Shown here piece after piece: positions 6,376 to 51,644 of a stretch of DNA of 64,000 nucleotides; positions within the stretch are counted from its first letter, which is position 1, and each line of letters opens with the position of its first letter. This DNA is from Kineothrix alysoides (lineage in GTDB: Bacteria; Bacillota; Clostridia; Lachnospirales; Lachnospiraceae), in contig NZ_JPNB01000002.1 in the NCBI RefSeq assembly GCF_000732725.1, forward strand, positions 992,001-1,056,000, in the 5' to 3' direction. A model generated the notes under the pieces. The model was not told the DNA's origin, made no database searches, and saw only the letters and a program-made list of their open reading frames with translations. Made by a program: the position numbers and the translations under genes.

Positions 6376-6449
6376 CGAAGCGTGGCTCAGCTTGGTAGAG
6401 CGCTGCGTTCGGGACGCAGAGGTCGTGGGTTCGAATCCCGTCGCTTCGA
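6376..6449 (+). tRNA. tRNA-Pro (anticodon CGG)
   Basis: The acceptor arms CGAAGCG (6376-6382) and CGCTTCG (6442-6448) pair, followed by discriminator A. The anticodon stem-loop is CTGCG-TTCGGGA-CGCAG (6403-6419), which puts CGG at 6410-6412 and reads CCG (proline). The T-loop TTCGAAT is intact. The T-stem GTGGG/CCCGT contains two wobble pairs, whereas the duplicate 3' half at 11397-11433 has a better-paired T-stem. No CCA is encoded. Confidence 0.95.
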
Positions 6450-14202: not shown

Positions 14203-14474
14203 AAAAAAGCGCCCTCCTCCCTTATAACTTTAAGGACGAGAACGCTAAACGTTTCGTGATACCACCTTAATTTACTTGTATTTCACAATACAAGCCTCAT
14301 CGAGTACATAGTAAATCTATACTCTAGCGCTTTAACGAGCGCACACGGTGTAGCCTTAGGGATTCCCTTCGGTACACAGCTCCAAGACCGGTTCAATATT
14401 CCTTCAATAAAGTTTTACACCAACCAACCTCTCTCTGTAATCTTCAGAATATTTACTATCTCTTTTCAACACTT
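14203..14474 (-). promoter_or_regulatory. T-box leader (tRNA-sensing riboswitch)
   Basis: Read on the minus strand, the leader has an AGTA motif with a later GAA opposite it (specifier-loop S-turn), then stem-loops. The conserved T-box AAGGTGGTATCACG lies at 14255-14268 and is followed by a strong terminator (AGCGTTCTCGTCCTT pairing with AAGGGAGGAGGGCGCT, then TTTTTT, 14203-14248). The bulge TGGT would pair with ACCA, matching a tRNA with discriminator A. The specifier region is GAACCGGT; ACC (Thr), CCG (Pro) or CGG (Arg) cannot be distinguished without folding. It precedes the methyltransferase gene by about 50 bases. Confidence 0.85.
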
Positions 14475-14480
14475 TTTTTG

Positions 14481-41878: not shown

Positions 41879-42529
41879 CTAGGCGTATTCCTTATCTACT
41901 CTATCCCAATCCTCTTTAAATATTTTCGTTCCGCTCTCAGTCAATGAATGTTCCAGCGATCTCATGAACAAATCATATGGTATGGCTGCGTAATCGATAT
42001 CCGCCAAGGCTAGCTGCTCCAATTGACGTACATTTTTTATTGATGCCGCTACAACCTTTGTTCCTGAGTCCCTCCGATGAAGCATCTGCTGAATTTGCTC
42101 TGCAATCTTCAATCCGTCATACCCATTCTCTTCATTTCTTCCAACAAAGGGAAAAACGTAGGAAGCTCCGGCATTAGAAGCTGCAACAGCCTGTGAGATA
42201 CTAAAAATTAAAGTCATTGCAGACTTTATTCCCAAGCTGCTAAGATATCCGCATAGCCTTAGCCCTTCTTGCGAAAAGTTAATCTTGATAACGATATTTT
42301 TGTTTATGCTGATAATCTCTTCGGCCTCTTTACTCATTTCTTCAAAAGTATCTCCCATCACTTCTCCGCTTAGGAATTCAAGATCATAAATAGAATATTT
42401 TTTTAAAAACCGATAGAAATTTATATGCTTATTTTTGTACATGGTCGGATTTGCCGTAATCCCGCAGGCTCCTATTTGCAGCGCATGTTCTATCTGCTCC
42501 GGCTCTGCCGAATCAATAATATATTTCAT
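41879..42529 (-). CDS. Transaldolase / fructose-6-phosphate aldolase-like protein
   Basis: A protein of 216 residues, the length of the small FSA/TalC group. The motif G-I-T-A-N-P-T-M (family T-T-N-P-(S/T)) is at about 23-30. The Schiff-base Lys is expected in I-V-I-K-I-N-F (about 80). Then S-A-M-T-L-I-F-S (family T-(A/T)-(V/I)-(F/Y)), A-G-A-S-Y-V-F-P-F-V-G-R and K-V-V-A-A-S-I-K-N. It makes or breaks a C-C bond of a phosphorylated sugar. AAGGAG precedes the ATG. Last gene of an operon with an Fe-alcohol dehydrogenase and a HAD phosphatase. Confidence 0.85.
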   Translation of the reverse strand: MKYIIDSAEPEQIEHALQIGACGITANPTMYKNKHINFYRFLKKYSIYDLEFLSGEVMGDTFEEMSKEAEEIISINKNIVIKINFSQEGLRLCGYLSSLGIKSAMTLIFSISQAVAASNAGASYVFPFVGRNEENGYDGLKIAEQIQQMLHRRDSGTKVVAASIKNVRQLEQLALADIDYAAIPYDLFMRSLEHSLTESGTKIFKEDWDRVDKEYA

Positions 42530-42570
42530 ACATTTCTCCTTCTTCTCATTAACCTATCCGTTCTCTGCAG

Positions 42571-43413
42571 CTATTCCATTTCCATTACATCCTTCTGCAG
42601 CACAAATTTTTGGACCGCCTTTGCCACGCCGGCATTTATATTCGTATCCGTAATGTAATCTGCTGCTGCCTTAATTTCCTCTGTCCCATTCCCCATGGCG
42701 ATGCCCAGAGCACCGTACCGAATCATTGAAATATCATTTTCATTATCGCCGATACACATAATTTCGTCTCGTTTAATTCCAAGATAAGCACTTAACTCCC
42801 TCACCGCTTCTCCTTTGGAAGTGCCGCCTCTCATAACTTCAAAATTACATGGATGGGAGCTTACGACTTCCAGATCCTCATATTGCTTTAATTCCAGCTT
42901 GGCCTGTATTAAATTTTCCTCCAGCACTTTATCGGCCCGAAAGATCAGCGCTTTATAAATGTCATTGCTTTGCCCTTCCAACACCTTATTTAAATCGGCA
43001 TTTTCAATAAATTCCATTTTATCTTCTTCCTTAAGCTTTGGATTTGTCCGTTTGTAAGGGTGACTTTCTTCTATCCATTCATTGCTGATGACTTTATTGC
43101 GGCCCTTAAAATGTATTACCAGATGATGCTTTGCCGCAACCGTATAAATCCGTTCCATTTGTTCCGCGTTCAGACTCTTTTCATATACTGCTTGATTGTA
43201 TCTGAAATAAGTGCCATTTGTCGCTATAACGTGCACTTTGGGATGAATCAAATCCGCAAAATATCTTGCGATATTAAATGGTCTTCCGGAAACCAACGCA
43301 ATTTCAACTCCTGCCTCCACAGCGTGCTTAAGTACTTCCAGATTCTGTCCGGGTATCGAAAACTCATCACCCAGCAAAGTACCGTCCATATCAATGCAGA
43401 TTAGTTTTATCAT
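42571..43413 (-). CDS. Cof-type HAD-superfamily phosphatase
   Basis: A protein of 280 residues. HAD motif I is I-D-M-D-G-T-L-L (8-15), motif II is L-V-S-G-R, motif III Lys is in G-T-S-K-G-E-A-V, and motif IV is M-C-I-G-D-N-E-N-D-I-S-M. The type IIB cap lies between motifs II and III. Cof-type enzymes dephosphorylate sugar phosphates or cofactors. It lies between the dehydrogenase and transaldolase genes with gaps of 10 and 41 bases, so it probably adjusts a phosphosugar pool of the same pathway. Confidence 0.92.
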   Translation of the reverse strand: MIKLICIDMDGTLLGDEFSIPGQNLEVLKHAVEAGVEIALVSGRPFNIARYFADLIHPKVHVIATNGTYFRYNQAVYEKSLNAEQMERIYTVAAKHHLVIHFKGRNKVISNEWIEESHPYKRTNPKLKEEDKMEFIENADLNKVLEGQSNDIYKALIFRADKVLEENLIQAKLELKQYEDLEVVSSHPCNFEVMRGGTSKGEAVRELSAYLGIKRDEIMCIGDNENDISMIRYGALGIAMGNGTEEIKAAADYITDTNINAGVAKAVQKFVLQKDVMEME

Positions 43414-43423
43414 CTTTTATCTC

Positions 43424-44584
43424 CTATTTTTCTTCGAACGAATCTCTTATAATATCCTGAAGCCATTCTTTATTCCCAAACGGCAGGAACCCTAAAACCG
43501 GGTTTTCTAAGATTATACTCAGTTGTTCTTCTGTTACATCGAATTCCTTTAAGCTCTTGCATAACCCAACTTTTTTTAGAAAGGAAGCCACTTCAACATG
43601 CAGCGCTTCAGCCGCCGTTTCCTCTTCTGCCTCTTCCAATTCCTGGTTAAACAGACGGGCCACCCGGGCAAACTTTGAAGTATAATCCCTCCATGCCTTT
43701 TTAAGGAAGGCCGGAAAAACAACTGCCAGCGCTTCGCCATGAGCTATATTCGTTACACCCCCGATTATTTCACTAAGCGGATGAGGCGCAGAAGCTCCTG
43801 AATTTGCTAAACTGCATCCGGCTAATGTATCCGCAATTGCGAGCTGCTTTCTGTATTCTATATTTTTTCCCTCCTCCAATGCCTTGGGCAGGAAACGAAT
43901 AACCAGCTCCATAGCCTTTAAACTCTGTATTTCTGTAAATGCGGATGCTTTTTTATTAATATAGCTCTCAAAAGCATGTGTAAAAGCATCAAATCCGGTG
44001 GCCGCTGTCACTTTCCACGGAAGTGTCGCCATCAGCTCAGGATCTATAATACACTGTTTTGAAAAATTATCCTGATGGAATATTGTAATTTTTTCTTTTC
44101 CTCTTGTAATAACTGCTGCTTGCGTTACCTGGCTTCCTGTTCCTGAAGTTGTCGGAACAGCAATTAAAGGCAGCTTTTTATCGCTGAGTGCCTCATAATG
44201 TGCAAAAGGATTGGAGTAATTTGTCAGCAAATCATCCCAGTCAATAGAACTCAATCCATTCGTTAACGCGATGACTTTTGCCGTATCAATGCTCGAACCT
44301 CCTCCTACCGCCAGTACAAAATCAACTTTTCCCGCTCTGGCCGCCTCATGTCCCTCATTTACAATCTCTACGGTGGGATTGGGCAATACTTTATCAAAAT
44401 GAATTACCTCAATATCTGCTGAAGACAATAACTCCTTTACTCTGTTAAAAAGCTTGTCCAGAGGTTCTGCATGGGGTGTTGTAACCAACAGGCACCTGCT
44501 CCCGTATCCGGAAACAACCTCGGGCAGCTTTTCCAGCTCACCCTGTCCGAATATAATTTTTGAAGGCTGATAATATTGAAACAT
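43424..44584 (-). CDS. Iron-containing alcohol dehydrogenase
   Basis: A protein of 386 residues. The NAD-binding G-G-G-S-S-I-D-T-A-K (about 94-103), T-T-S-G-T-G-S-Q-V-T, and the metal ligands in I-I-D-P-E, F-D-A-F-T-H-A-F-E-S-Y, P-H-P-L-S-E and A-H-G-E-A-L-A-V define family III (Fe-ADH). Substrates in this family range from butanol to polyols and phosphonates. Because it is first of an operon preceded by a regulon operator shared with a PTS gene, oxidation or reduction of a sugar or polyol intermediate is more likely than alcohol fermentation. Confidence 0.92.
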   Translation of the reverse strand: MFQYYQPSKIIFGQGELEKLPEVVSGYGSRCLLVTTPHAEPLDKLFNRVKELLSSADIEVIHFDKVLPNPTVEIVNEGHEAARAGKVDFVLAVGGGSSIDTAKVIALTNGLSSIDWDDLLTNYSNPFAHYEALSDKKLPLIAVPTTSGTGSQVTQAAVITRGKEKITIFHQDNFSKQCIIDPELMATLPWKVTAATGFDAFTHAFESYINKKASAFTEIQSLKAMELVIRFLPKALEEGKNIEYRKQLAIADTLAGCSLANSGASAPHPLSEIIGGVTNIAHGEALAVVFPAFLKKAWRDYTSKFARVARLFNQELEEAEEETAAEALHVEVASFLKKVGLCKSLKEFDVTEEQLSIILENPVLGFLPFGNKEWLQDIIRDSFEEK

Positions 44585-44682
44585 AATTTCCTCTCTTTCT
44601 GCGTGTGAACGCCGCGCATGGCAAGTTCAAAAACTTCTCCTGTTCTTTAAAGCATCTTTTTGCTTATTTATCTTATGAAATA

Positions 44683-44754
44683 ATTATATCCGTCCCTGTA
44701 TCTCCTTTCAACCTCACAGCCGGTAACTAAATTTAACCAAATTATGTGGCAATA
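44683..44754 (-). promoter_or_regulatory. Promoter and activator site of the dehydrogenase operon
   Basis: On the minus strand: -35 TTGAAA (complement of 44706-44711), 17-bp spacer, -10 TATAAT (complement of 44683-44688). Upstream is the imperfect inverted repeat ATTTAAC-N10-GGCAATA (44731-44754) whose centre is 59.5 bases from the outer edge of the -10 box. The same distance holds at 47902-47973 and 51573-51644. It would place an activator near position -66. Confidence 0.7.
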
Positions 44755-44775
44755 TGTAAACAATTATGCTATAAT
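44747..44775 (+). promoter_or_regulatory. Promoter of the PRD regulator gene
   Basis: -10 TATAAT (44770-44775) with a poor -35 TGGCAA (44747-44752), 17-bp spacer. The -35 overlaps the right half of the operator of the divergent operon, so binding there could also control the regulator. A further half-site GGTAATT (44844-44850), beside the palindrome CACATTAATGTG, lies in its leader. Confidence 0.5.
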
Positions 44776-44890
44776 TGAGAATAACACCGATTATTAAGGG
44801 AATTATAGAAGATATATTTTTTGTTTATTCCTCACATTAATGTGGTAATTTTATTTTAATTCCGTATTTTGAAAGGAGCATGGCTATAAA

Positions 44891-46438
44891 ATGAATAAAA
44901 GATTATTACAGGAAGCAGAGCTGCTTTTGAGTAAAAATGCTTATATTACAGTTAGCGATATAGCCACTACCTTAAGCTGCAGTAATAAGACCGTAAGAAA
45001 TGACTTGATAATACTGGAGCCTTGGATTAAAGACTTGAATCTCTCTCTAGATAAAAAAATTGGTGTCGGCATCGCTATCCGTGGTGACGAAGAAATCAAA
45101 TTAAAGGTTCTGAACGACCTTGCCGCAAAGACCCACAATATCCAGGAATATTCTCCCGAAGACAGGATGAACTATATTCTATCCCAATTATTTTCTCGCA
45201 ATTCAAGGCTTCGCATTAAGGAACTGGCAAGCCACCTTTACGTAAGCAGAGCTACCATACACAAGGATTTACTCGCTGCGGATGAATGGCTTTGCAATTA
45301 CAATATAAAGTTGATCAGGAAGACAAATTATGGTATTGAAATCAATGGCAATGAAAATGATATTAGGAATGCGATGTCCTATTTAATCTGTTCCCACAAG
45401 CAATATTTAGAGCTTCAGGCAATCCTGAATGAAGAGACGTCACCTGCCTCCGATACTTTAAAATTATTCCGAAAATTAACTAACTTCGATATTCTGAAAC
45501 TTAAAAACACAGTTTTCGGTATACCGGAACTGATTTCCTACCACCTTACGGATGAAGCGCTTCTTACGTTTATCGTGGATATCTCTGTTGCAACTACCAG
45601 AATGTCCATAGGAAAATATATCCGCTTGTCCTCTGATACCAAACAGAAGATTGACCATACCGAGGAATTTCTTATTGCAAAGAGGATAGGTCACAGCATT
45701 GAGGAAGTATTCAGCATTACCTTTCCTCCAGATGAAATATATAATCTGGCACTTCATATCCTATGTTCAAAAACCGACTGTTCTCCCGGCCTCCACCCGG
45801 ATGTGGAGAATTTTAATTCTGAAGAATTTATGGAAGCGGAAAATCTCTCCCGGAAGCTGGCTTCTTATTGGAGCAATACTTTAAGGTTACCCTTAACCCA
45901 GGATAACGAATTATTTCATTCCCTCAGTATGCATCTGAAGCCTGTAATAAATGGTGTTCGGTACGGATTAACTGCCAAAAATCCGATCTTAGATGAAATC
46001 CTAAAATATTATCCTTATACTTTCCGCGTAGTTAAGGATTCTATTTTTATTTTGGAAGATTATTTATGCCACAAAATCAGTGATGATGAGATTGGATATA
46101 TTACACTCCATTTGGCCTCCGCCATTGAACGGTCAAAGAAAAAATTAAAAACGGTGGTAATCTGCCACGGCAGTACCGGAGAAGCAAAGCTTTTAAAAAA
46201 CAAGCTCAGTCATGAAATGAATGAGCTTGATATCGTTTATACAAAATCTTCTACCTATATCAGCAGTAATGACTTGAAAGACATCGACTTGATCATTACT
46301 ACGGTCCCGCTTAAAATAAATACTGAGATCGATGTTATCAACATTTCCTCTCTATTGAACAAGCAGGATATCGTACGGTTAAAATCTATTATTAAAATGA
46401 TTTATTCCAGGAAAAATTCACTGACAATCAATAAATAA
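44891..46438 (+). CDS. PRD-domain transcriptional regulator (MtlR/LicR-like, DNA-binding)
   Basis: A protein of 515 residues with GAAAGGAG ahead of the ATG. Two N-terminal winged-helix segments (about 5-65: I-T-V-S-D-I-A-T-T-L-S-C-S-N-K-T-V-R-N-D; about 90-150: I-K-E-L-A-S-H-L-Y-V-S-R-A-T-I-H-K-D) are followed by PRD1 (about 205-310) and PRD2 (about 320-415, with H-L-K and L-H-L). An EIIB-like domain comes last (V-V-I-C-H-G-S-T-G-E-A, about 420-505). No EIIA domain is present. Such proteins are DNA-binding activators whose PRDs are phosphorylated by PTS components. It is the obvious candidate to bind the shared inverted repeat of this locus. Confidence 0.88.
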   Translation: MNKRLLQEAELLLSKNAYITVSDIATTLSCSNKTVRNDLIILEPWIKDLNLSLDKKIGVGIAIRGDEEIKLKVLNDLAAKTHNIQEYSPEDRMNYILSQLFSRNSRLRIKELASHLYVSRATIHKDLLAADEWLCNYNIKLIRKTNYGIEINGNENDIRNAMSYLICSHKQYLELQAILNEETSPASDTLKLFRKLTNFDILKLKNTVFGIPELISYHLTDEALLTFIVDISVATTRMSIGKYIRLSSDTKQKIDHTEEFLIAKRIGHSIEEVFSITFPPDEIYNLALHILCSKTDCSPGLHPDVENFNSEEFMEAENLSRKLASYWSNTLRLPLTQDNELFHSLSMHLKPVINGVRYGLTAKNPILDEILKYYPYTFRVVKDSIFILEDYLCHKISDDEIGYITLHLASAIERSKKKLKTVVICHGSTGEAKLLKNKLSHEMNELDIVYTKSSTYISSNDLKDIDLIITTVPLKINTEIDVINISSLLNKQDIVRLKSIIKMIYSRKNSLTINK

Positions 46439-46469
46439 AAGGCAAAGCTTTTGTTATGTTTTATTTTTC

Positions 46470-47075
46470 TTATGCAGATGCAGGCTGCTGCTTCAAACCG
46501 AATTTTGATGTTATAACGTTAATCGTTTGTATGATAACGAACAAGGAAACGAGCGAAAAGATTGCCACCGTATAATCCCGGCTTATAATACCGGAAAGTA
46601 TAACAACCGTGCCATCTAACAGAAACAGAATCACCGGCAGTTTTAAGAACCTGATTATTTTATTCAGCAGCAATGCCATCAAGTCGGTTCCCCCGGTGGC
46701 ACAGCCTCTTATCAAGGCAAGTCCGATTCCGGCTCCTACCAGCAAGCCTCCGGCAATTGCCGCTGCCGGCAGGCTGTTCGTTACATGAATTTCTGGTATT
46801 ATTTTCAAAAAAACCGGAGTGGCAAAGGTAATATATAACGTTTTGATTCCAAAGCTCTTTCCCAAAAATACTACTCCCAAAATTAACAAGGGGCCGGAAA
46901 TGGCAAGAGAAGCATAGGACATCGGTATTTTTGTAACTTCAGCTATGATAATAGATATGCCGGTTATTCCGCCCGGTGCCAATGTATGCTCCGCAAAAAA
47001 GAAATTTACAGCACAGGCCATAAGCACACTGGACAGAGTAATCAGTATATAATCAATCAACCTTTCTTTTATCAT
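46470..47075 (-). CDS. YitT-family membrane protein lacking the DUF2179 domain
   Basis: A protein of 201 residues with five hydrophobic helices. Family features are N-F-F-F-A-E-H-T-L-A-P-G-G-I-T-G-I-S and G-C-A-T-G-G-T-D-L-M-A. Typical YitT proteins are about 280 residues with a cytoplasmic DUF2179 domain; here the protein ends right after the membrane part. Function of YitT proteins is not settled (membrane transport suspected). It starts two bases after the epimerase-like gene stop, so it is cotranscribed. Confidence 0.85.
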   Translation of the reverse strand: MIKERLIDYILITLSSVLMACAVNFFFAEHTLAPGGITGISIIIAEVTKIPMSYASLAISGPLLILGVVFLGKSFGIKTLYITFATPVFLKIIPEIHVTNSLPAAAIAGGLLVGAGIGLALIRGCATGGTDLMALLLNKIIRFLKLPVILFLLDGTVVILSGIISRDYTVAIFSLVSLFVIIQTINVITSKFGLKQQPASA

Positions 47076-47077
47076 AT

Positions 47078-47794
47078 TTATTCCAAACCAAATTTCTCTG
47101 CCGCTTCATCGATCGCTTTTCTGCATTTCTTAACCCCTGCGGCAATTCCTTCCTCATCCTTAAAAATAGCGGAAGAAAGAACGATAACATCCGGATTGCA
47201 CTCGATCAATTTTTCCATATTATCATGACGCAGTCCTCCATCGATCGCCAGTTCACAGCCCGGATTTTTTTCATCGATCATTTTTCTTGCTCTTTTTACC
47301 ATATCCAATGAGCTTTTTCTCCAGCCCCAGTTATCCTGTCCATCTGTCTCATCAACTCCATGAGTAACGATATGCAAACGGTCAATATCATAAATCGCTT
47401 CATCCACAAAGCATAATGGTGTGTAGCAGCCCACCGCCAGACCTATCTTCATTCCGAATTCTCTGCAGTAATTAATGATATAAGCCAAGGGAGCCCCGAG
47501 GAATTGTTCTGCGGGAAGTATCAGCATATTGCATCCTACCCTCGCTAATTTTTCTATGAATAACCTGTCACATTCTACCGTATATATATGGCATTCTATC
47601 ATTTTATCCGTTATTGGCCTGATACCGTCAATAATTTGATGCCCTCCCATAAGCTGCAGATTTCTAAGATTATACATATCGGCTGCATCAGAGTGAACAT
47701 AATCCGCTCCTGCATCCATTGCCTCCTTAACCACTCCTGCAATATTCCCATAATTAACATGTGCCAGACCTGCTGCAATTTTAATATGTTTCAT
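47078..47794 (-). CDS. Ribulose-phosphate 3-epimerase-like TIM-barrel protein
   Basis: A protein of 238 residues. The RPE fold is supported by the metal-binding-like patterns A-D-Y-V-H-S-D-A-A-D-M (family (H/D)-x-D-x-M-D), K-M-I-E-C-H-I-Y (family D-x-H-L-M) and E-L-A-I-D-G-G-L (family D-G-G). The spacing and sequence differ clearly from housekeeping Rpe, for example D-A-A-D-M-Y-N and C-H-I-Y. It is more likely an epimerase or isomerase of an unusual phosphosugar. GGAGG precedes the ATG. It has its own regulated promoter and is followed by the YitT gene. Confidence 0.82.
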   Translation of the reverse strand: MKHIKIAAGLAHVNYGNIAGVVKEAMDAGADYVHSDAADMYNLRNLQLMGGHQIIDGIRPITDKMIECHIYTVECDRLFIEKLARVGCNMLILPAEQFLGAPLAYIINYCREFGMKIGLAVGCYTPLCFVDEAIYDIDRLHIVTHGVDETDGQDNWGWRKSSLDMVKRARKMIDEKNPGCELAIDGGLRHDNMEKLIECNPDVIVLSSAIFKDEEGIAAGVKKCRKAIDEAAEKFGLE

Positions 47795-47901
47795 AATAGA
47801 TCCTCCATCTTTTGATTTTTATTTTTTATCAGTTCTATATTTCTTTAAATATCAACAAGGATATTTATCCCGGCAAGGATTGAATTAACTTTTATATATT
47901 T

Positions 47902-47973
47902 ATATTACACAAAACCATATCCTGCGTCAACGCAGCCGGTATGCTCAAAAATTACCTTTTTTCAGTGGTAATT
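47902..47973 (-). promoter_or_regulatory. Promoter and activator site of the epimerase-YitT operon
   Basis: On the minus strand: -35 TTGACG (complement of 47925-47930), 17-bp spacer, -10 TAATAT (complement of 47902-47907). Upstream lies the perfect 7-bp inverted repeat AATTACC-N10-GGTAATT (47950-47973), with its centre 59.5 bases from the outer edge of the -10 box. It is the best copy of the locus-wide operator. Confidence 0.8.
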
Positions 47974-48075
47974 TATGAACAATATGTTTAATTTATCAAT
48001 TTACCTTGATATTACAAGCACCTTAATATTTTCGCTTTATTATAGTAAATATTATACAATATCCCTTCCCGGAAC

Positions 48076-49524
48076 CTAATATAGAGATGCTGCGTCAGTC
48101 TGATCCTCATTCAATCTTATAATTGCTTCAGCGTATATATCCAGTGCCTTAAAATAACTTTCAATTTTCATGCATTCATTTTCTCCATGTGAATTGGGTG
48201 TCTCCCGGGGAAAACTCGGTCCAAATCCCACGCAATTCGGAACAGCTCTGGAATAACTGATTCCCCCTTTTGTTACCGGCAGCGGTCTTTCCCCTGTTAC
48301 CGATTCATAGGAATCCAATAAAATATGAACGAGATTATCGTCAGGAGAAACATAGAGCCTTTTCTTCTTTTGAATTACTATTGTTTGAAAGCCTTCCTTT
48401 GCTGCTTCTTCATTGAGATGCGCCAAAATGCAGTCTTCCTCGATACCCATCGGATAGCGTATATCAAAGCCCATAAGAAGCTCCTTTTCCGTATCCGTAT
48501 AAGAAAGATAACAAAGCGCCATCGTAAGGTCACCTGTTTCAGAATGATGGTGCTTTATCCCAAAACCCGCCCCATAAGGTTCCTTCTGAAACCATTGCAT
48601 AACCCGCTCCAATATGCTGTAGAAATTATAATCTATACCGGTACATGCAATAAAATCCCTGGCAAATTCATGCGCCGCATGGACTGCCCGTTGGGGATTC
48701 CTGGAAAGATTTCTTGGTGAAAGATAGGTCAAGGTTATGATATCTGCGTCGGAGGTTACTTTTACCGCATGGACAGCACAATTTTCTACGGCAGATATAT
48801 CTGCTGTGCGGATTGTCACTTTCAGCCTGTGAAGAGTATAATTATGGCTTATATTCGATTCCATCCGTATTAGTTGATGAACCTCGGCGTTTCTTTTCTG
48901 CACCCTATCAGATTTATCATAGACTTTTTTGAATTCGCCCCGAAGCACTCCTTTCTCACAGTTCACTACCGGGAAATCGCAATCGGGAGAAAAAGACATC
49001 TGAGGAGGTGCATTTCTTTTTAAATAATAATCCATACATTCCCAAGTCGTTTCCTCTGCTCCTCCTATTATCAGCCTTATTTTTTTAGAAGGCTGATAAG
49101 CTGCTTCCTTTAATAGCCGCATAATGTACAATATGCCTATTATGGCAGATTTATCATCATTAACTCCTCTGCCATACATAAAGCCGTCTCTTACGCTTAA
49201 GGTAAACGGCTCCGATAGCCACTGGGAGGAATCCTTGCATGGTACTACATCAGTATGGGTTAATATACCTAATACTTCACTGTTTTCGCCATAATCTATA
49301 TGCAATGCATATCCGTCAAAATCCTGCCATTTCAGGGAAAATTTTTCTGCCATCTCAATGATTAAGTCGAAAGCCTTTCTTATTTCTGCTCCAAAAGGTC
49401 TGCCGGAAGCTGCTGTGGCATTATCATATACAGAAGGAACAGCTACCAGCCGTCCGATATCATACAGAATTTGCTCCTTATAATCATCCAGTCCGTTTTT
49501 TAAATAGTCTTTTGTTGTTTTCAT
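48076..49524 (-). CDS. Sapep-like M20 metallopeptidase (dipeptidase)
   Basis: A protein of 482 residues from ATG 49524 (AGGAG about ten bases upstream); an in-frame ATG at 49569 is less likely. M20 motifs are G-I-L-T-H-T-D-V-V-P (metal His and catalytic Asp), G-R-G-V-N-D-D-K-S (bridging Asp) and G-G-A-E-E-T-T (catalytic Glu). The lid domain is about 190-320, and the C-terminal metal His is likely in G-E-N-E or S-H-G-E. Sapep/PepV enzymes cleave dipeptides with Mn2+ or Zn2+. It lies 135 bases after the PTS gene in the same direction, an unexpected member of a sugar locus; it might cleave an amide-linked sugar conjugate. Confidence 0.85.
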   Translation of the reverse strand: MKTTKDYLKNGLDDYKEQILYDIGRLVAVPSVYDNATAASGRPFGAEIRKAFDLIIEMAEKFSLKWQDFDGYALHIDYGENSEVLGILTHTDVVPCKDSSQWLSEPFTLSVRDGFMYGRGVNDDKSAIIGILYIMRLLKEAAYQPSKKIRLIIGGAEETTWECMDYYLKRNAPPQMSFSPDCDFPVVNCEKGVLRGEFKKVYDKSDRVQKRNAEVHQLIRMESNISHNYTLHRLKVTIRTADISAVENCAVHAVKVTSDADIITLTYLSPRNLSRNPQRAVHAAHEFARDFIACTGIDYNFYSILERVMQWFQKEPYGAGFGIKHHHSETGDLTMALCYLSYTDTEKELLMGFDIRYPMGIEEDCILAHLNEEAAKEGFQTIVIQKKKRLYVSPDDNLVHILLDSYESVTGERPLPVTKGGISYSRAVPNCVGFGPSFPRETPNSHGENECMKIESYFKALDIYAEAIIRLNEDQTDAASLY

Positions 49525-49578
49525 GGCATATTTTCTCCTATGGAAGATACTTTTCCCTTTTCTTTCCACAATGTATTA

Positions 49579-49600
49579 AGTGGCAGAAGAATCTGCCACT
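49579..49600 (-). other. Intercistronic hairpin between PTS and dipeptidase genes
   Basis: AGTGGCAGA and TCTGCCACT pair perfectly around AGAA or its complement, with no T-run. It is more likely an mRNA-stability element or partial terminator than a full stop. Confidence 0.55.
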
Positions 49601-49659
49601 CAACAAGGGGGTTTATTTCCATTCACTGATTTTCATGGATCAATGAAATCATGATGGCA

Positions 49660-51285
49660 TTAATTTTTTTCAAGGACATCCTTTACCTTAGTCGTTAATG
49701 TTGTAACGTGTGTCCCGTAAATAATCTGATAATACTTATTATTTTTTACAACGCCCAATGCTTCCAAATCGTTTTTCCAGGTTTTATCATCCGCAACAGA
49801 TTCCTGATCTTTCACGGTGACACGCAGCCGTGTCGCGCAGCAGGATACTTCCACAATATTTTGTGCGCCTCCAAATGCGTCTACTATTCTCTCCGGAAGG
49901 CTTTTACTATCGTTTGGTTCTTTATCCTCAACTGCTTTGTTTGTATTCTTTATCTCATTATATTCTTTTTTGCTCATAAACTTAATTTCCTGCTCTGCTG
50001 CTTCGCGTCCCGGTGTCTTTAAATTAAATTTTACAATTAAGAACCTAAATAAGAAGAAATAAACAGCAAATGTCAGCGGCAACAAATAAAGGAGAGACAT
50101 CGCATGAACCTTTTGAGGCTGCAGGAGATTAGGTATCATGAATAATAAAGCATTTCCATTAATAGATACCTGCGTTATTTCCGTTAAGACATAGGTCAGC
50201 CCGCAAATAGGTGCATAAACAGCAAAGTAAAGAACCGGCGCAACAAATAAGAATGTATATTCAATCGGTTCGGAGATACCGACCATCATCATTGTTACTA
50301 CCGCCGGCAAAACAATAGAAAGTACTTTCTTTTTGTTTTCTTTTCTGGCTGTAGCATAAATTGCACAGCCGACTGCAGGAAGGCCGGCAAGCTGGAATAA
50401 AACGCGGCCCGACGTAAAGTTTCTTACTATATATCCCGTTGCGTCAGCCGAACCGGACTGCCCGACAATAATATTTTTTACTCCTTCGAAAAGAGTTCCG
50501 TCAATCGTCATCGTACCCCCCACACGGGTATACTCAATCGGAAATGCAATTAAGTGATGGATACCGAAAGGCAGGAGTAATTTATCGAGTGTTCCGAATA
50601 CAAAAGTTCCGGTTAATCCGGAAGAGGTAATGAAGTTCGTTAAAAAGTGTAATCCGTCGGCAACCACAGGCCATACATAATATGCAATGATAGCCATCGG
50701 AACAGATATCAATGACAGCATCAAGATAACGAACTTGGTTCCTGAAAAGAAAGAAAACATCATAGGAAGTTCTTTTTCATTCCACTTGTTATTTGCCCAT
50801 GCCGCCACTAACCCGCAAATCAAACCGCTGAAAATACCCATATCAAAGGTAAATATGCCTGCAACCGAGGCCCACATGGAATTAAAGTTTAAAGCAGCCG
50901 TTTGCGTATATCCCAAAGCTAAAAGATTATCTACTGTTGTTGTCGTTTCATCCCAGCCCATGGAACCTGCATAAACAGATATGCATTTATTGAAAGCGAA
51001 CAGCAGGAACAAACCTGCTAACGCACCCCATCCCTTTTCTTTCTTGGAAAGGGTAAATGCAATACCGACCGCAAACCATAATGGAAGATACCTCATAATC
51101 ATAAAACCAATACCGGAAAACATATCAAAAATAGTGTATATTATATTGCCTTTTGGAATGATATAATTGGTAAATGCACTTCCTATACCGACGTAAAAAC
51201 CAACGATAACCAAAAGGATTACTGGTACCATCATCGCCCCTGAAAATGTTTGGAGCTTTCCTCTTAAATTAAGTTTATTTTTCAT
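49660..51285 (-). CDS. PTS transporter EIICB component (glucose superfamily)
   Basis: A protein of 541 residues with AAGGAG ahead of the ATG. EIIC occupies about 1-420, with ten or so hydrophobic segments and the family motif L-L-P-F-G-I-H-H-L, then G-I-S-E-P-I-E-Y-T-F-L-F. EIIB lies at about 455-540 with the phosphorylated Cys in E-V-S-C-C-A-T-R-L-R-V. It imports and phosphorylates a sugar of the glucose/maltose/N-acetylglucosamine type class. No EIIA gene is in the window, so a shared EIIA must donate phosphate. It is first in a unit with the dipeptidase. Confidence 0.93.
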   Translation of the reverse strand: MKNKLNLRGKLQTFSGAMMVPVILLVIVGFYVGIGSAFTNYIIPKGNIIYTIFDMFSGIGFMIMRYLPLWFAVGIAFTLSKKEKGWGALAGLFLLFAFNKCISVYAGSMGWDETTTTVDNLLALGYTQTAALNFNSMWASVAGIFTFDMGIFSGLICGLVAAWANNKWNEKELPMMFSFFSGTKFVILMLSLISVPMAIIAYYVWPVVADGLHFLTNFITSSGLTGTFVFGTLDKLLLPFGIHHLIAFPIEYTRVGGTMTIDGTLFEGVKNIIVGQSGSADATGYIVRNFTSGRVLFQLAGLPAVGCAIYATARKENKKKVLSIVLPAVVTMMMVGISEPIEYTFLFVAPVLYFAVYAPICGLTYVLTEITQVSINGNALLFMIPNLLQPQKVHAMSLLYLLPLTFAVYFFLFRFLIVKFNLKTPGREAAEQEIKFMSKKEYNEIKNTNKAVEDKEPNDSKSLPERIVDAFGGAQNIVEVSCCATRLRVTVKDQESVADDKTWKNDLEALGVVKNNKYYQIIYGTHVTTLTTKVKDVLEKN

Positions 51286-51572
51286 TCATTTGCTCCTTTC
51301 TATGTGTCTACCGCATATATAAAAAATAATGCGATATAGCTATACCTCCCGTATAAATTTTACGCCAATAAAATCCATAAAAATTATAAGGCCATGATGC
51401 GCTTATCGGAAAAAACAGCTTAATGCAACCCTCGCGATTTTGTTAACTAATTGCATTTATTCCATAACAATTTTCCGATACTCTTTTAATATTGCTTTCC
51501 TATCTCATCAGCCATAATTTTAATCTGAAATTTATCAGCATTTTATAAAAAATTAATTCAATGCCTAAATGA
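51286..51572. other. Long 5' leader of the PTS gene
   Basis: About 280 bases between the predicted start site (near 51566) and the PTS start codon. It is AT-rich with no gene, and I could not define a clear antiterminator or riboswitch by eye. Confidence 0.4.
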
Positions 51573-51644
51573 ATTATATTTGAAAGTAATTTACTTTGCA
51601 ATGCTGCCGGTGTTTATCAAATCTACCATTATATTGTGGTAAAT
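51573..51644 (-). promoter_or_regulatory. Promoter and activator site of the PTS gene
   Basis: On the minus strand: -35 TTGCAA (complement of 51596-51601), 17-bp spacer, -10 TATAAT (complement of 51573-51578). The inverted repeat ATCTACC-N10-GGTAAAT (51621-51644) has its centre 59.5 bases from the outer edge of the -10 box, the same geometry as the other two promoters of the locus. Confidence 0.75.

Follow-up and report, generated by a model that had tools for sequence, protein, structure and literature searches.

The locus and its operator sites

The DNA analysed here, called the window, is a stretch of 64,000 nucleotides of the Kineothrix alysoides genome (contig NZ_JPNB01000002.1). Positions 41879-51644 of the window carry eight genes, all of them open frames of the expected families, among which are a phosphotransferase system (PTS) gene for EIICB and a PRD regulator gene that is divergent relative to the neighbouring operons (Table 1). 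The locus is considered a genuine regulon, conserved and predicted to be run by the PRD protein; regulation of this kind is known, and its object here is a catabolic cluster. The PRD protein is very probably an MtlR-like, PTS-controlled activator that acts via a palindrome at three promoters.

Table 1. Features of the locus, in window coordinates. G309 is a genome of the same genus.
Feature	Position	Strand	Remarks
Promoter 1	51573..51601	-	EIICB; -35 TTGCAA 51601-51596, 17 bp, -10 TATAAT 51578-51573
Promoter 2	47902..47930	-	EPI-YitT; -35 TTGACG 47930-47925, 17 bp, -10 TAATAT 47907-47902
Promoter 3	44683..44711	-	FeADH-HAD-TAL; -35 TTGAAA 44711-44706, 17 bp, -10 TATAAT 44688-44683
Operator 1, TTACCACAATATAATGGTAG	51623..51642	-	precedes EIICB; kept in G309
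Operator 2, TTACCACTGAAAAAAGGTAA	47952..47971	-	precedes EPI-YitT pair; kept in G309
Operator 3, TTGCCACATAATTTGGTTAA	44733..44752	-	precedes FeADH-HAD-TAL; kept in G309, left half best
Fourth operator-like site	44829..44848	unassigned	between PRD gene and FeADH; left half kept in G309
EIICB, PTS, glucose family	49660..51285	-	under the curated cut-off of every full-length model among those listed
M20 peptidase, Sapep-like dipeptidase	48076..49569	-	332.9 bits, cut-off 207.95
EPI, ribulose-phosphate-epimerase-fold enzyme	47078..47794	-	distinct, strongly conserved family; sequence, alignment and fold match
YitT-family membrane protein	46470..47075	-	family match
PRD regulator	44891..46438	+	two winged HTHs, PRD1, PRD2, EIIB-like domain; predicted activator
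FeADH, iron-containing alcohol dehydrogenase	43424..44584	-	family match
HAD, Cof-type phosphatase	42571..43413	-	family match
TAL, small transaldolase/fructose-6-phosphate-aldolase family protein	41879..42529	-	family match

An earlier note on this DNA described three minus-strand promoters, each with a TTGxxx -35 box and a 17-bp spacer, and the sequence coordinates bear this out. Inverted repeats are found at 51621-51644, 47950-47973 and 44731-44754 (centres 51632.5, 47961.5 and 44742.5), and every centre is 59.5 bases off the outer edge of its -10 box. Both this offset and the matches of the copies to a 7+7 consensus (11, 14 and 10 of 14 positions), as the earlier note gave them, are exact. 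The earlier note gave the repeat a 7-N10-7 form, but the motif is closer to an 8-N4-8 palindrome. A 20-bp imperfect palindrome, in idealised form TTRCCAYA-N4-TRTGGYAA, is thus the better description of the operator, with its start 41 nt ahead of the -35 box; counted from the start of operator 1, the -35 box is at +41 and the -10 box at +64. Column counts over 68 hand-picked sites give the consensus TTRCCAYAWTAWTRWGGHAA.

Operators had been proposed at three promoters only, and a fourth, weaker operator-like site was overlooked. It scores 16.1 bits on the minus strand, but is itself one of the eight training sites of the matrix used below, and it lies 43-62 bp ahead of the PRD start codon. Candidate roles are autoregulation, or a relic of a divergent TAL operator that is found in other genomes.

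The same-genus genome G309 has a locus with all eight genes (EPI 95%, EIICB 86% and PRD 82% identical). The repeat is found at all three of its promoters, and at each of them a conserved block spans the region from the operator to the -35 box. A close PRD orthologue is present in two of 16 genus genomes, own included; at the family level (299 genomes, own included) the next best PRD match is 29% identical. The 282-nt 5' region of EIICB (51286-51567) also has a short block kept in G309. An RNA leader was considered for this region and rejected, with two Rfam matches far under the gathering scores and a fold z of -1.1. Elsewhere, the window holds a T-box leader (14229-14478, minus strand) and a tRNA gene (6376-6449, plus strand).

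Operators of fixed geometry occur together with a clade of PRD genes

One scan with EPI yielded 46 loci: 20 with EIICB and a PRD gene (PRD+), five with EIICB and no detected PRD gene (PRD-) and 21 without EIICB, although one of the last group, L062, has a PRD gene. A PRD-protein profile had no match among the open frames of at least 90 amino acids in the five PRD- loci. A matrix was built from eight sites, those of the window and G309, and then applied to the remaining loci. In the automatic count, outside the training set, 50 sites of at least 12 bits are present in 19 of the 20 PRD+ loci (138 upstream regions), and none in the five PRD- loci (24 upstream regions). At 10 bits the numbers are 76 sites in all 20 PRD+ loci versus a single site in the PRD- loci. 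The earlier note had asked for such a check, and the repeat stands ahead of orthologous genes in 19 of the 20 other loci that have EIICB together with the PRD gene.

The geometry recurs as well. In 24 of 49 PRD+ sites (4.2 expected) the hexamer most like a -10 box lies between +62 and +66, and TTG is found at +41 in 15 of the sites, the next best position having five. Several of the promoters downstream of such operators have poor -35 boxes. A first matrix run, scored against first-order random sequences with the YitT and HAD regions excluded and operon-internal genes retained, gave p<=0.01 (the floor) in 32/109 upstream regions of PRD+ loci and p<=0.05 in 54/109; the corresponding figures for PRD- loci are 0/23 and 2/23. 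Matches are also denser in the clusters, 82 in 203 kb of cluster DNA from 21 loci (palindromes may count twice), than in 201 kb of DNA flanking the clusters of those loci (13) or in 200 kb around other PRD genes (5). Related genomes are not independent (e.g. L050/L051, L052/L055 and L068/L069/L073), so site numbers are to be read as counts and not as strict probabilities. The 68 hand-picked sites (statistics on 60) were selected by eye on the operator, and the automatic count is therefore the more trustworthy. The EPI scan of 398 phylum genomes provided one locus besides the own one and is uninformative for the operator question: the locus is on a 4.7-kb contig with none of the other seven genes and with one 10.8-bit match, on the strand opposite EPI.

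Which protein binds the palindrome? In a PRD tree, 23 of 24 proteins from these loci fall in one clade (support 97/98), with 42 control PRDs outside. The exception is the second PRD protein of L078; those of L084 and L062 are on long branches. More distant relatives were taken as the four best PRD matches beyond the own genome among 391 class genomes. The three with the best scores (L150/L131, L151/L132 and L152/L133) are PRD regulators of MtlR-like architecture, with an added Pfam EIIA domain, and EIIA and EIIC genes come after the PRD gene; the other seven cluster genes were not found in the fetched 12-20 kb stretches. Each of L150, L151 and L152 has a site directly upstream of the PRD gene (21.1, 14.5 and 11.4 bits, respectively); in each case TTG follows at +41 and a hexamer resembling a -10 box between +62 and +64. 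A composite pattern written from the three window promoters (operator, 21 N, TTG, 20 N, TANNNT) has matches in five of 19 class-level PRD loci, three of which are L150-L152, in two of 47 family controls and at four places in 337 kb of other DNA. In this small set operator likeness tracks regulator likeness, and no other argument for the PRD protein as the binder is as strong. These PRD-EIIA-EIIC operons perhaps point to an operator rule that holds more widely in this PRD branch. As a separate observation, a TTGGCAC...GTGCCAA palindrome lies near another PRD gene (L010, 3609), with TTG at +40 and TATAAT at +64; the layout resembles that of MtlR, but the half sites differ.

The palindrome could instead be bound by another regulator encoded elsewhere, the presence of the PRD gene being incidental. 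This is unlikely. No tool result favours it, and the contrast of 12-bit sites between PRD+ and PRD- loci speaks against it, as do the PRD relatives in operons without the other cluster genes, where a similar site has the same spacing. The MtlR operator, as far as its sequence can be taken from primers (see below), shares the layout. The suggestion of the earlier note that the PRD gene is the natural regulator candidate is hence supported by the PRD+/PRD- contrast, the common clade and the outside relatives with a similar operator.

The regulator and its likeness to MtlR

The PRD regulator consists of 515 amino acids and ends after the EIIB-like domain (AlphaFold2 model, pLDDT 83.8). Its Pfam matches, PRD in two stretches (2.4e-33), HTH_11 and Mga, place it in the PRD family. 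Among 17 aligned proteins, His348 of PRD2 is nearly invariant and both HTHs are rich in invariant residues; the window regulator has a Cys in the EIIB-like loop. AtxA/Mga/AcpB-type regulators (4r6i, 5way, 3sqn and 9atx) are the best structural matches of the model, and the nearest PDB entries, AtxA, MgaSpn, 3sqn and AcpB, are 13-21% identical in sequence. These regulators presumably have the same domain order as the window protein: HTH, HTH, PRD, PRD and EIIB-like, without an EIIA-like end. Unlike them, the window regulator has a catabolic cluster as its predicted target, and with the AcpB/EbpR/MafR family model NF053736 (NCBIfam) it scores 89.1 bits, under the cut-off of 130. It is shorter than the L150-L152 regulators, which have the Pfam EIIA domain.

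The closest parallel in regulatory design is MtlR of Bacillus subtilis. In the PmtlA primers of PMC3217849, the mtlA operator reads TTGTCACAGTCATGTGCCAA, i.e. TTGTCACA-GTCA-TGTGCCAA, followed by 18 bp and the -35 box TTGTAT. That paper describes MtlR as an activator which needs phosphorylation by HPr and is inhibited by its own PTS; the binding site seems to reach towards the -35 box, and by distance MtlR is likely class II. According to PMC10992428, MtlR boxes TTGTCA...TGCCAA shift in the electrophoretic mobility shift assay, and high affinity is ascribed to dephosphorylated PRD2. The likeness extends to a PRD activator of a PTS operon, a 20-bp 8-N4-8 palindrome with similar half sites (TTGTCACA versus TTRCCAYA) and a sigma-A promoter whose -35 box is about 20 bp downstream of the operator. 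Compared by eye, the consensus TTRCCAYAWTAWTRWGGHAA agrees with TTGTCACA-N4-TGTGCCAA ahead of a sigma-A -35 box, and the window operators are therefore of the MtlR type. Target genes and substrate differ between the two systems.

How might the system work? By analogy with MtlR, a dimer of the regulator would bind the 20-bp palindrome, whose centre is some 66-67 bp ahead of where transcription should start, and once bound may help RNA polymerase at the EIICB-M20, EPI-YitT and FeADH-HAD-TAL promoters. During uptake, EIICB would hand its phosphate to the substrate, by which the inhibitory phosphorylation of the regulator would be removed, and phosphorylation of the regulator by HPr would keep catabolite control. 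The cluster would import and degrade a carbohydrate. The activator reading of the fixed-distance operators, although a prediction, is well supported; the earlier note had already argued that a fixed distance near -66 fits an activator, and the geometry holds up and resembles that of MtlR at mtlA.

A number of points weigh against an MtlR-like activator. Across the 17 aligned proteins PRD1 lacks an invariant His and some sequences are without the EIIB-like Cys, which means that control by phosphorylation may differ from one protein to another. Published accounts of this control are not uniform either, as PMC3217849 and PMC10992428 disagree about which PRD2 state is active. The window protein has no EIIA-like C-terminal domain and is thus not an MtlR orthologue; besides the EIIB-like Cys419, MtlR has one more regulatory residue, His599. 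The distance from the operator start to the -35 box is 41 nt here versus 38 nt at mtlA, the latter counted from mutation primers that are assumed to preserve length. By distance, PMC3217849 argues for class II, whereas an operator centre near -66, as in this locus, falls in the range that the paper gives for class I. In operator 3 the right half is poor, and G309 keeps only part of it. Outside the window, the -10 box is in place at only about half of the automatic sites, the EIICB site of L053 is without the geometry, the sites of L151 and L152 match chiefly in their left halves and the fourth outside PRD locus, L153, has no such site.

Could the protein be a repressor, or have a dual role, instead of being a pure activator? 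The position of the fourth site ahead of the PRD start codon would suit negative autoregulation. Nevertheless, a repressor or dual regulator appears quite improbable: the operators lie upstream of the -35 box at a fixed distance, in the window and wherever else the promoter elements are in place, the poor -35 boxes noted above stand behind several of them, and MtlR is an activator.

The three promoters could also resemble each other by coincidence or as duplicated promoters of shared ancestry, and the repeat alone, at up to three mismatches, is indeed not significant in the window (7 versus 5.4 expected), but the repeat is retained within the genus and found again in other families, which contradicts this reading and makes it hardly credible. 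The exact 7-N10-7 repeat occurs once in the window (0.01 expected), its single place in the 4.68-Mb genome, and the copy at the dehydrogenase promoter, with four mismatches, is weak when taken alone. The composite pattern has five matches genome-wide at up to one mismatch; since it was derived from the window promoters, which are three of the five, only the two other places (L100 and L104) are informative. At up to three mismatches it has 37 genome matches versus 14 for the reversed control. The core palindrome alone is not specific, for at zero mismatches it has seven matches in other parts of the genome, versus three for the control, and none of the window promoters has one. What settles the question of chance is phylogenetic footprinting together with the tests on loci outside the training set.

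Is the regulon new? Literature searches on the gene combination and on PRD regulons provided nothing on this locus, a weak negative as most subscription papers were outside their coverage. The regulon may thus be called undescribed, as the earlier note had it, in the sense that no published account was found, but its regulatory design, the MtlR type, is already known.

The EPI family and the candidate substrate

EPI matches in 42 of the 46 loci are 59-85% identical over at least 229 of 237 residues; of the others, one is a partial match at 70% and three, at 23-30%, are other proteins. Most of the 42 are from Bacillota, and the rest include one bin each from Spirochaetales, Bacteroidales and Anaerolineales. 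EPI is sporadic, since at E 1e-80 only two of the 398 phylum genomes, own included, have it. The protein belongs by fold to the ribulose-phosphate epimerase superfamily, and its model matches 7sbj (TM 0.81/0.87) and 3ct7 (TM 0.78/0.84). The epimerase His, Asp, His and Asp, which we take to be the metal/catalytic residues, are kept in invariant columns of the alignment. Unlike ribulose-phosphate 3-epimerase and D-allulose-6-phosphate 3-epimerase, however, EPI has the GFGGQ phosphate loop replaced by HGVDxTDGxxNWxW, and this loop is modelled poorly (pLDDT <50 at 147-153). With TIGR01163, the ribulose-phosphate 3-epimerase model, EPI scores 89.6 bits, under the cut-off of 212.6. The general family name may mislead.

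What does the cluster degrade? The AlsE-like fold of EPI and the fructose-6-phosphate aldolase (FSA)-like TAL brought a D-allulose/psicose pathway to mind. It was rejected, as the curated scores are far under the cut-offs and the phosphate loop differs, and a literature search on the route gave nothing judged relevant. FSA proper was likewise rejected for TAL: the Schiff-base Lys context is kept, but E and F replace Gln59 and Tyr131 of FSA, residues whose roles we assume for this judgement. A transaldolase is as likely an assignment as fructose-6-phosphate aldolase. Degradation of Amadori products was discarded too, a literature search having shown nothing for this gene set. The statement of the earlier note that the enzymes add up to no textbook sugar pathway stands, none being recognised for the gene set.

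The partners of EPI vary. They comprise EIICB and M20, often with EIIA and YitT; EIIA and EIIC genes of fructose-type appearance (by eye); and OppA-type binding proteins (named by eye), M29-like and M3 peptidases and amidohydrolases. A second type of EPI cluster, with an Opp-type binding protein, M29-like and M3 peptidases and amidohydrolases, is seen in L059, L060, L061, L064, L065, L066, L082 and L086, its gene complement being incomplete in some of them. A tryptophanase/tyrosine-phenol-lyase-like enzyme is encoded beside or near EPI in seven loci (L053, L057, L062, L067, L072, L075 and L083), in PTS as well as in peptide-transporter neighbourhoods.

The recurrence of partners that handle peptides or amino acids suggests a conjugated substrate. 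From the gene neighbourhoods one may weakly infer a carbohydrate linked to an amino acid or peptide. Tentatively, and with the odds rather against it, EPI with its rebuilt loop, FeADH and the transaldolase-like enzyme might degrade such an amino-acid- or peptide-conjugated carbohydrate in an undescribed route, where M20 first unlinks the conjugate; other bacteria would use EPI beside peptide transporters, amidohydrolases and peptidases, or beside a tryptophanase/tyrosine-phenol-lyase-like enzyme. That the substrate is new, as the earlier note proposed, is plausible.

The locus offers a concrete operator rule, i.e. a half site and its spacing to the -35 and -10 boxes, for one branch of Bacillota PRD activators, whose targets become predictable from sequence. 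The regulon also fixes which genes probably act together in a pathway. It thus narrows the search for the substrate and for the function of the conserved EPI family, which general models group with ribulose-phosphate epimerase.

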